In this document: one piece after another, positions 1 to 5,486 of the stretch
Layout: every line of letters starts with the position of its first letter
Numbering within the stretch: position 1 is the stretch's first letter
Assembly: GCA_014730235.1 (NCBI GenBank)
Contig: WJIO01000356.1
Span: forward strand, 1-5,709
Reading direction: 5' to 3'
DNA length: 5,709 nt
Source: Candidatus Poribacteria bacterium
GTDB taxonomy: Bacteria; Poribacteria; DTPJ01; WJIO01
Position numbers and translations under genes: made by a program
Notes under the pieces: model-generated
Told to the model about the DNA's origin: nothing
Seen by the model: only the letters and a program-made list of their open reading frames with translations
Database searches by the model: none

Positions 1-830
1 CTATAAACACCAAGCATATACTATTTTTTGTGAGCGGTGCATTTAATAAGCTAGACGAAGTAATCAAAAAGAGGATGCACAAACAAGGCATTGGTTTTGG
101 TGCTGAGATTATTCAAAATCAGGAAAGTGAAAATTACCTGGAAGAATGTAAATCTGTTGACTTCATTGAATATGGTTTTGAACCCGAATTTGTAGGTCGA
201 TTACCTGTTCGGGTAGTGTGTTATGAATTATCAGTGGAAGACCTCTATAATATACTTAAGCATTCCGAAGGCTCTATAGTTAAACAATATCAAAATGCTT
301 TTAAGGCTTATGGGATAGATGTTATTTTTTCAGATGAAAGCCTGTGGCGAATTGCTGAAAAAGCCTATGAGGAAAAAACCGGGGCTAGAGCTTTATCCAC
401 AGTATGTGAAAAGACAATGCGGGAATTTAAATTTGAATTACCCTCATCTGAAATTAAACATTTCGTTGTAACCTCTGAGATGGTAAATGATCCTAAGTCT
501 GAGTTAAAAAAGCTTATGGAAAATCCCAAAGCGAATAAAATCATTATAGCTCATGAGTTGCTAAAGGAATATGAAAAACAATTTATGACCAAACATCAGA
601 TTAAATTATCATTTTCAGACGAAGCAGCAGGCCTTATAAGCCAGAAATCCGAAGAAACACAAAAAGATATTAAAGGCGTATGTGATGAAATATTAATTGA
701 CTTTGAATACGGTCTCAACCTGATCAAAAGAAATACAGGAAAAACTGAATTCACTATAACCAAGGAAGTTATTCTTGATCCAAGCGGAACTTTAGACAAA
801 TGGTTCAAAGAATATTACAACAAACAATAA
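1..830 (+). CDS. ClpX-like AAA+ unfoldase, C-terminal part, with a duplicated small domain (5' end outside window)
   Basis: Partial gene. The frame is open to the left edge and the bases before the first GTG (position 30) already encode the ClpX-type strand ILFFVSGAF, so GTG-30 is not the start. Residue numbers below count from that GTG. Visible family marks are the GIGFG loop at 20-24, whose IGF tripeptide docks ClpX onto ClpP, EFVGRLPV at 53-60 with the arginine finger R57, and the sensor-2 motif TGAR at 117-120. The region 83-162 is the normal ClpX C-terminal small domain. ClpX normally ends soon after this point, but here about 100 more residues follow, and 177-259 aligns with 83-162 as a second, diverged copy. 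The Walker A and B motifs and any zinc-binding domain would lie outside the window. By family, it should unfold proteins using ATP in the cytoplasm, possibly for ClpP. It is probably a ClpX paralogue rather than housekeeping ClpX. The next gene starts four bases after the stop. Confidence 0.88.
   Translation, partial: INTKHILFFVSGAFNKLDEVIKKRMHKQGIGFGAEIIQNQESENYLEECKSVDFIEYGFEPEFVGRLPVRVVCYELSVEDLYNILKHSEGSIVKQYQNAFKAYGIDVIFSDESLWRIAEKAYEEKTGARALSTVCEKTMREFKFELPSSEIKHFVVTSEMVNDPKSELKKLMENPKANKIIIAHELLKEYEKQFMTKHQIKLSFSDEAAGLISQKSEETQKDIKGVCDEILIDFEYGLNLIKRNTGKTEFTITKEVILDPSGTLDKWFKEYYNKQ
276..809 (+). repeat. Tandem duplication of the AAA+ C-terminal small domain within the ClpX-like protein
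   Basis: Copy 1 covers about 276-515 and copy 2 about 558-809, with a short linker between them. Aligned pairs include KQYQ...F with KEYE...F, FSDE with FSDE (residues 100-103 and 195-198), IAEK with ISQK, VCE with VCD, and near the ends T.E...DP with T.E...DP (148-155 and 244-251). The relation is seen at protein level only; the DNA has diverged, so the duplication is old. Copy 2 lacks the GAR sensor-2 arginine, which argues that it no longer contacts nucleotide and serves another role such as hexamer packing or partner binding (inference). Confidence 0.75.
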
Positions 831-3262: not shown

Positions 3263-4018
3263 ATGAAAGGCTTTATTTCCCATAAAAAAATTATAATATT
3301 TATATTTGCTATATCCGTATGGTCATCTACCATGAGTGTATTAAGCGCTCAACCACTTCTGGAACAGCCTACCATATGGAATGGAAAATTTAAAAGCGGC
3401 GAAGAACTTGAATACAACGTAAAAGTACGGGGAATTCCAGCCGGAACTCAGGTTATGAAAATAGATGGAAATTTAACCTGGAGCGGAAATAATGTTTACC
3501 ACGTCAAAAGTGAATCTAAAATAACAAGGCTATTCAGTCTGTTTTATTCCTTTGATAACCGCAGTGAAAGCTTTATTGACAGCACTTATTTACATCCTTT
3601 ATATTATAGTCGAAAGATTATTGATGGTGGTTATAAAGGACGTACGATAGTTGATTTTGATCAGAAAAATCAGATTGCCAGAGTTGTAAAGGACAAAAAA
3701 TATAAAGAGATAGAAATACCTACAGGTATTCAGGATGAATTATCTATGATCTATCTACTGCGAAGTAAAGATATTGAAGTGGGTCAAAGCTATAAATTTC
3801 CTGCTCTTATCGGTACAGAAATTATTGACGCAAAAGTATCAGTTCTTAGATATGAAAAAGTAGACACTGATATGGGAAAAATTAAAACTATTGTTGTTAA
3901 AACTACGCCCAAAAATATTGTTATATGGCTTACGGATGATGCAGCCAGAATTCCTGTAAAGATAGAAGCGGACAGCAAATTAGGTAAGATTGTATTTAAA
4001 TTAGAACATATACGATAA
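3263..4018 (+). CDS. Exported DUF3108 family protein
   Basis: A 251-residue protein and a clear member of the DUF3108 family (periplasmic proteins of unknown biochemical role, found in Gram-negative-type bacteria). Residues 1-29 are a signal peptide with an n-region HKK, a hydrophobic core and a signal peptidase I site LSAQ (cut after Ala29). Family hallmarks in order are GEELEYNVKVRGIPAGT (46-62), the central F...YSFDNRSESFID (91-106), QDELSMIYLLR followed by GQSYKFP (157-180), and the closing WLTDDAARIPVKIEA with GKIVFKL (222-247). Its length is normal. The start follows GGAAGGTG at 3245-3252 with a 10-base spacer, a moderate ribosome-binding site. It stands alone between two terminators, and no convincing promoter was found in 3089-3262. 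It is a distant relative of the exported protein at 835-1635, so DUF3108-type proteins appear twice here. It ends convergent with the metallopeptidase gene. Confidence 0.9.
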   Translation: MKGFISHKKIIIFIFAISVWSSTMSVLSAQPLLEQPTIWNGKFKSGEELEYNVKVRGIPAGTQVMKIDGNLTWSGNNVYHVKSESKITRLFSLFYSFDNRSESFIDSTYLHPLYYSRKIIDGGYKGRTIVDFDQKNQIARVVKDKKYKEIEIPTGIQDELSMIYLLRSKDIEVGQSYKFPALIGTEIIDAKVSVLRYEKVDTDMGKIKTIVVKTTPKNIVIWLTDDAARIPVKIEADSKLGKIVFKLEHIR

Positions 4019-4207: not shown

Positions 4208-5032
4208 TTATTTTACCAAAATATGAGCTATGGGTTTAGAGGAGTTATTTCCTTTGTTTTCTAACCAGATAAGGGATAAAATCTGCTTAAATTTTGGAAA
4301 ATACCGGGACTGCTCGATCATTTTAGCTTTGCTATCTGAAGCGCTTTTCGACCAGGAATTTATATAAACTTCCCCATGAGCATCTAAATCTTTAATATCT
4401 TTATCAAACAGCTTTTTGGCAAAAGTTCCCTCCTGTAAAGGCGCACTTCTAGAAAGATAGAGGGATTTATCCTTTCTGAAGCTCTCTGAATATGAAAAAT
4501 ATCTGATTTTGCCCTCTTCCGAAACTATTATAGCGCAAACTTCAGGATTGAATCTAGCGTATCTGATTGCTGTACTGGTTATGGAGGTTTTATATTTTCT
4601 TGCCAGAAAACTTATGGTTTTCAGGCTTATATCCCTGTTTTGTATATCCTGCCTGAAAACATTTTCAGGCATCAGAAGCTCAACGGCAAACTCATTGGCT
4701 TCTCTCTCCTCCTTTTTAATATACTCACCAAGACTTCCTATATCTTTGCCAAAACATTGATAGCCTAAACTGTTGTGATAATCTATAGTATAATGACCCA
4801 ATTCATGAGCAATGGTAAATCTTATTCTTGCCTTTGACTTTATAGAACTATTCACCATTATGCCCCAGTTCCCCTCAACTGAAATAAGATAACCATCATA
4901 TCCGCTGTCAGCTTCTCGCTCCCATACGGATATACCCATTTTTTCAGCTATTTTTCGAGGGTAAACAGGAATATCTGATATACTAAGTCCAGAGAGCAAA
5001 TCTCTGGCATAATAAGTCGGAAGTTGACGCAC
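4208..5032 (-). CDS. ImmA/IrrE family zinc metallopeptidase, long form
   Basis: A 274-residue cytoplasmic protease of the ImmA/IrrE (DUF955) family. The zinc site is visible: HELGH at 76-80 gives His76, catalytic Glu77 and His80, and EREAN (109-113) supplies the third ligand, Glu111. The family landmarks FAVELLMP (115-122) and a helix-turn-helix-like SFLARKYKTSITSTAIRYA (141-159) follow. Beyond about residue 165 there is a C-terminal domain (CAIIVSEEGKIRYF ... INSWSKS ... IWLEN), as in IrrE-type proteins, which are longer than the minimal ImmA. Family members cut a partner XRE repressor and so switch on its targets; the XRE gene directly upstream on the same strand is the likely substrate. 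The start is GTG: the frame closes just upstream and no ATG is near. The ribosome-binding site AGGTGG is four bases away. The gene has its own promoter in the 121-base gap. Confidence 0.93.
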   Translation of the reverse strand: MRQLPTYYARDLLSGLSISDIPVYPRKIAEKMGISVWEREADSGYDGYLISVEGNWGIMVNSSIKSKARIRFTIAHELGHYTIDYHNSLGYQCFGKDIGSLGEYIKKEEREANEFAVELLMPENVFRQDIQNRDISLKTISFLARKYKTSITSTAIRYARFNPEVCAIIVSEEGKIRYFSYSESFRKDKSLYLSRSAPLQEGTFAKKLFDKDIKDLDAHGEVYINSWSKSASDSKAKMIEQSRYFPKFKQILSLIWLENKGNNSSKPIAHILVK

Positions 5033-5153: not shown

Positions 5154-5486
5154 CTAATCCTGACCGTTCCTGCTCTTAAGAAACTCATAGAATTCCAGCA
5201 TGGTTTGCTTATCCTTCTCAGAAAGCTCCATAAATCCCCTGAACATAACACTGACCTTCGGGTCTGCCAGTATATCATCATATCCTTTCTTTTTTCTACC
5301 CAGTAAATAGTCAGTGGTAACCTTCAAAGCCTCAGCCAGCTTGGATAAGGCGTCAAAAGAAGGTTTACGAGCACCGGATTCAAATTGAGAGATAGCTGCA
5401 GGAGTAAGCTTCGCAGCCCTTGCCAACCGGGTTTGTGTAAATCCCAGATCCGTTCTACGGTTTTTAATTCGCTTTGCTACCGACAT
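5154..5486 (-). CDS. XRE-family transcriptional repressor, ImmR/DdrO type by context
   Basis: A 110-residue DNA-binding protein. The HTH_3 (Cro/C1) domain fills residues 5-63: IKNRRTDLGFTQTRLARAA, then the recognition region LTPAAISQFESGARKPS and LAEALKVTTDYLLG. A short tail follows, with DDILADPKVSVMFRGF (70-85) and a final helix LSEKDKQTMLEFYEFLKS (88-105), a tail type common in repressors paired with ImmA/IrrE proteases and the likely place for cleavage or dimerisation (inference). Start: ATG at 5486 with AAAGGAGG (5502-5495) eight bases upstream, the best ribosome-binding site on this strand. The protease gene follows 121 bases downstream on the same strand with a separate promoter. The repressor probably controls both promoters, since they share the TTGCATTTAC block. 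No integrase, excisionase or DNA-repair gene is in view to show whether the switch belongs to a mobile element or to a stress response. Confidence 0.93.
   Translation of the reverse strand: MSVAKRIKNRRTDLGFTQTRLARAAKLTPAAISQFESGARKPSFDALSKLAEALKVTTDYLLGRKKKGYDDILADPKVSVMFRGFMELSEKDKQTMLEFYEFLKSRNGQD

Follow-up and report, generated by a model that had tools for sequence, protein, structure and literature searches.

A second consecutive small domain in a divergent family of ClpX-type unfoldases

The window analysed here, a stretch of 5,709 nucleotides at the start of a contig from a Candidatus Poribacteria genome (G000:C299:1-5709), opens with a frame for the C-terminal part of a ClpX-like protein. 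An earlier note, made from the letters alone, had read this frame as an unfoldase carrying two consecutive C-terminal small domains. Is the second domain (D2) truly a copy of the first (D1), what kind of ClpX carries it, and what might it do there?

Results

A gene broken at the contig edge

The frame at positions 3-830 is open at its 5' end, where it is cut by the contig start. The protein had initially been counted from position 30; this GTG is an internal codon only, and the gene starts on another contig, C21. When the N-terminal half of a relative was searched against the same genome, the missing 5' half was located at G000:C21:4-786(-) (locus L217, 68% identical). This piece likewise extends to a contig edge, and the assembly is broken inside the gene for the ClpX paralogue. 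Read by eye, the C21 piece ends R-T-I and the window opens CT-ATA-AAC-ACC (I-N-T), with about five bases common to both. Because the ends abut and each relative is encoded in one open frame of about 500-600 residues, we infer that the C21 piece and window positions 3-830 form one gene, which would encode a ClpX-like AAA+ protein of about 537 residues. The part inside the window comprises the following features.

3..830 (+): 3' half of the gene for the ClpX paralogue with a double small domain, 275 codons plus stop; putative 5' half at G000:C21:4-786(-)
3..209 (+): closing part of the large AAA+ domain, sensor-1 segment (INTKHILF) through arginine-finger segment; Pfam AAA_2 over residues 1-69, and alignment
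90..98 (+): IGF loop tripeptide, the ClpP-docking loop of canonical ClpX (PMC7112951); [IL]GF in 100 of 103 relatives
186..206 (+): arginine-finger motif EFVGRLP; 102 of 103 relatives
228..497 (+): first small domain (D1), in the canonical position; Pfam ClpB_D2-small (41.8 bits) and ClpX NCBIfam models
378..389 (+): sensor-2 motif TGAR within D1; 102 of 103 relatives
498..593 (+): D1-D2 junction; in the full-length model of the relative L006 a single helix (residues 414-448) bridging the D1 end and the beginning of D2
513..827 (+): second small domain (D2), lacking the sensor-2 motif; profile comparison, AlphaFold2 model and structural matches

Elsewhere in the window, positions 835-1635 and 3263-4018 encode two DUF3108 proteins (Pfam 26.4 bits, barely above the cut-off, and 134 bits). 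By eye, a gene of similar sequence also follows the ClpX paralogue in a genome of the same order (L087). An adjoining IrrE/ImmA-like M78 metallopeptidase (4208-5032, -) and Cro/C1-type regulator (5154-5486, -) resemble an ImmA/ImmR-type pair.

The second domain has the ClpX small-domain fold

Taken as a single sequence, D2 was barely recognizable. It scored 13 bits against the Pfam small-domain model, below the cut-off, and on its own matched the ClpX NCBIfam model weakly (E 0.0019). Searching PDB sequences with the D2 profile returned only weak fragments, of DnaK/Hsp70 and other proteins, those of DnaK being the best.

Direct comparison of D1 and D2 gave a clear signal. The two blocks aligned in the earlier note (residues 83-162 and 177-259, counted from position 30) sit where it had placed them, and a Smith-Waterman alignment of both domains of the window protein scored 82, against a mean of 27 (s.d. 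4.9, maximum 53) for 2000 shuffles. Aligning family profiles of D1 and D2 (104 rows) with hhalign resulted in a probability of 98.8 and a score of 86.2 over 75 columns; 300 column-shuffled controls reached a mean of 12.0 and a maximum of 21.2, and the reversed control 17.9. An HMM of D2 also matched the sole small domain of family members that possess only one, with E-values for the matched stretch of 6e-10 to 1e-3.

AlphaFold2 folded the D2 segment alone with a mean pLDDT of 89.5 and a pTM of 0.78, in the order H-E-H-H-H-E-H-H. The best 50 Foldseek matches listed for this model were all ClpX chains (probability 1.00, query TM about 0.5-0.6), with E-values of only 0.009-0.04, as expected for 100 residues. 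VIA-align gave Z-scores of 7.7-10.1 to the small domains of ClpX and HslU over 86-95 residues, and since values below about 8-13 can be common among helical folds, the assignment rests on the consistent list of structural matches and not on Z by itself. These results confirm that D2 shares homology and fold with the ClpX/HslU small domain (ClpB_D2-small). The alternative named at the outset, an unrelated fold for residues 165-266, was thereby checked by profile and by structure prediction, and it was the small-domain fold that emerged.

A complete motor without the ClpX N-terminal parts

A motif census of the relatives found Walker A, Walker B and the GYVG pore loop in 103 of 103 and sensor 1 in 101. 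Together with the arginine finger and the TGAR of D1 listed above, the motor motifs are close to invariant. The suggestion that the second copy had lost the sensor-2 GAR motif holds across the family: the D2 of 12 relatives contains a GAR string, each time in its first helix, and in no relative does it stand at the sensor-2 site. Mean pairwise identity was 67% for the large domain, 58% for D1 and 37% for D2, the least conserved folded part.

Neither the C4 zinc-binding pattern nor the RKH loop occurred in any of the 103 relatives, and both the zinc-binding domain and the loop are absent from the N-terminal half encoded on C21. At the profile level, zf-C4_ClpX was not detected in five scanned family members. 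Both elements are present in the canonical ClpX of the same genome (L004, 434 residues), which coexists with the double-domain paralogue.

The full-length model of L006 (pLDDT 80.8, pTM 0.66) matched solved ClpX chains, with Z-scores as high as 33.8, across the AAA+ core and D1. Kinship with ClpX and the doubled small domain, both asserted in the earlier note, are thus borne out; the protein is, however, no canonical ClpX with one more domain but a member of a whole family without the zinc-binding domain or the RKH loop.

An old side branch of ClpX in several phyla

Five full-length members scored 307-351 bits against NF003745 (cut-off 359) and 284-322 bits against TIGR00382 (cut-off 370.75), compared with 651 and 641 bits for the canonical L004. 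The family is therefore outside canonical ClpX as defined by the NCBIfam equivalogs. In a quick PMSF tree the family and canonical ClpX fell on separate sides of a branch with SH-aLRT support of 100, both on long stems.

A homologue search for the double-domain architecture recovered a multi-phylum family. Within Poribacteria the double form was found in 57 of the 58 genomes sampled. The family was also present in Verrucomicrobia (25/115), Acidobacteria (6/80) and the phyla of a Spirochaetes record (17/120, plus one doubtful), a Deltaproteobacteria record (L025; 17/58, including four single-domain members and two fragments), a Bdellovibrionia record (2/114, one of them single-domain) and L082 (7/9); these counts include the centre genome, and the phylum name is that of the centre genome only. 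Omnitrophota, Planctomycetota and Kiritimatiellae records were also among the relatives. The family proves to be an old and widespread side branch of ClpX, patchy outside Poribacteria, and no one-off.

Matches listed from plasmid records spanned the AAA+ core and D1 only, and none covered 80% of the query. Two genomes of the L082/G066 phylum (G125 and G126) carry two gene copies each. A 433-residue protein at G484:C87:24622-25800 (+) scored 371 bits, compared with at least 540 for near-complete family members and a maximum of about 352 for canonical ClpX; it is possibly an intermediate form.

Origin and likely loss of the second domain

Compared by hhalign, D2 scored 79-91 with D1 of its own family (random subsets of seven rows) and 30.7 with the small domain of canonical ClpX from related genomes (also seven rows). 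The D2 HMM reached an E-value of only 0.02 on the canonical ClpX of its own genome. Since D2 is closer to the D1 of the family than to the canonical domain, this profile comparison points to a tandem duplication inside the family.

Five members (L154, L155, L159, L160 and L208) end after D1, and the fetched DNA contained no remnant of D2. L154 and L155 are nested among double-domain members (the starred branch, support 96), which makes at least one loss of D2 likely. L160 and L208 were placed near the unresolved base of the tree, where the single-domain form may be ancestral. Less conserved and missing from some members, D2 does not appear to be part of the motor, and the motor does not need it.

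Gene neighbourhood

One strong ClpP is encoded in the genome, and its gene adjoins canonical clpX on contig C261. No clpP turned up among the neighbours that recur around the paralogue gene in the fetched loci, and no gene neighbour was conserved across lineages, those in Verrucomicrobia and Poribacteria being different. At Verrucomicrobia loci (L052, L061 and others) a gene that by eye looks like one for a membrane-bound class III nucleotide cyclase starts at most about 10 bases downstream and is followed by recR and lipA; the cyclase-like gene belongs to a gene cluster in 37 loci. A role in a defence system was considered and rejected, as PADLOC produced weak generic AAA+ matches only.

Discussion

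We favour the reading, at a probability of roughly 0.6, that the product of this gene is a divergent ClpX-type unfoldase, the second in its genome, that likely shares ClpP, and that D2 is a peripheral accessory, most likely for docking substrates or adaptors. The motor and the fold are evident from sequence or models. Six subunits would assemble into a ClpX-like ring, in which D1 would perform the usual work as hinge, sensor 2 and contact with the large domain of the neighbour. Carried on the long helix that leads out of D1, D2 would lie at the ring periphery, unable to sense nucleotide. There it could offer a docking surface in place of the two missing elements, zinc-binding domain and RKH loop, and possibly also brace the subunits. 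Substrates would be handed to the single ClpP encoded beside canonical clpX. The accessory role is suggested by the fall in conservation from the large domain through D1 to D2 and by the members that lack D2. A more specific version, in which the duplicated domain forms a nucleotide-blind second tier round the hexamer and a built-in adaptor platform replacing both lost elements, in a multi-phylum family sharing ClpP, is tentative, and as a whole the odds are somewhat against it.

D2 might instead be mainly a structural brace that packs against the adjacent subunit, makes the ring stiffer and has no say in substrate choice. The E. coli ClpX small domain packs against the large domain of the clockwise neighbour (PMC7112951), and D2 retains this fold and has no sensor-2 motif, as a brace might. 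However, a brace would hardly be expected to be the least conserved folded part or to be missing from some members. It also fits badly with L082, and apparently L176-L182 and L185-L186 from the phylum of G066, where some 50 extra residues lie between D1 and D2. We consider a mainly bracing role rather unlikely.

Another possibility is that the protein unfolds or chaperones its clients without ClpP, as mitochondrial ClpX can do, with D2 aiding their holding or release and the IGF loop persisting as a relic. The gene never adjoins clpP in the sampled loci, and the family has neither zinc-binding domain nor RKH loop; both observations would suit such a chaperone. The retention of [IL]GF in nearly all relatives, across several phyla, is nevertheless more than a relic would predict. 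In E. coli the IGF loop makes most of the contacts with ClpP (PMC7112951), and docking, as predicted from this one loop, is probably conserved here. Independence from ClpP thus appears unlikely. That the C-terminal helical domain D2 is unrelated to D1 and resembles it by chance or convergence, to which the weak single-sequence scores and the DnaK fragments might have pointed, is contradicted by the hhalign score of 86 against a shuffled maximum of 21, the HMM matches to the D1 of single-domain members and top structural matches that are all ClpX or HslU.

On the reading we prefer, an accessory D2 on a ClpP-sharing unfoldase, two ClpX-type motors would appear to share one ClpP, raising the question of how substrates are allotted to each. 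Members with and without D2 provide a natural experiment on the role of a small domain outside the motor.

Comparison with known systems

The nearest described protein, compared by description only, is ClpX3 of Myxococcus xanthus (MXAN_2743). As reported, it is 43.5% identical to E. coli ClpX and, like the family described here, is a second-tier ClpX that lacks both the N-terminal domain and the RKH motif; its deletion made cells heat-sensitive, and the protein, lacking the zinc-binding domain, aggregated on purification (PMC11423568). The text consulted does not mention a second small domain, and membership of ClpX3 in the family is a lead. A literature search of openly available journal papers found none that describes a double small domain, and the branch is apparently undescribed.

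HslU (ClpY) matches the fold of D2 alone (Z 7.7-9.0). In contrast to the family it has one small domain, and the HslU scores of the family are far below both its own ClpX scores and the HslU cut-off. Canonical ClpX, from E. coli or from the same genome, shares with the paralogue the large and small AAA+ domains, the Walker motifs, GYVG, the IGF loop, the arginine finger and sensor 2. It differs in possessing an N-terminal C4 zinc domain, an RKH loop and one small domain, whereas the paralogue family has neither of the first two and has doubled the third. Specificity in AAA+ unfoldases is usually acquired through N-terminal or inserted domains. In this family the element that was copied, and retained across several phyla, is the small domain, which is integral to the ring.
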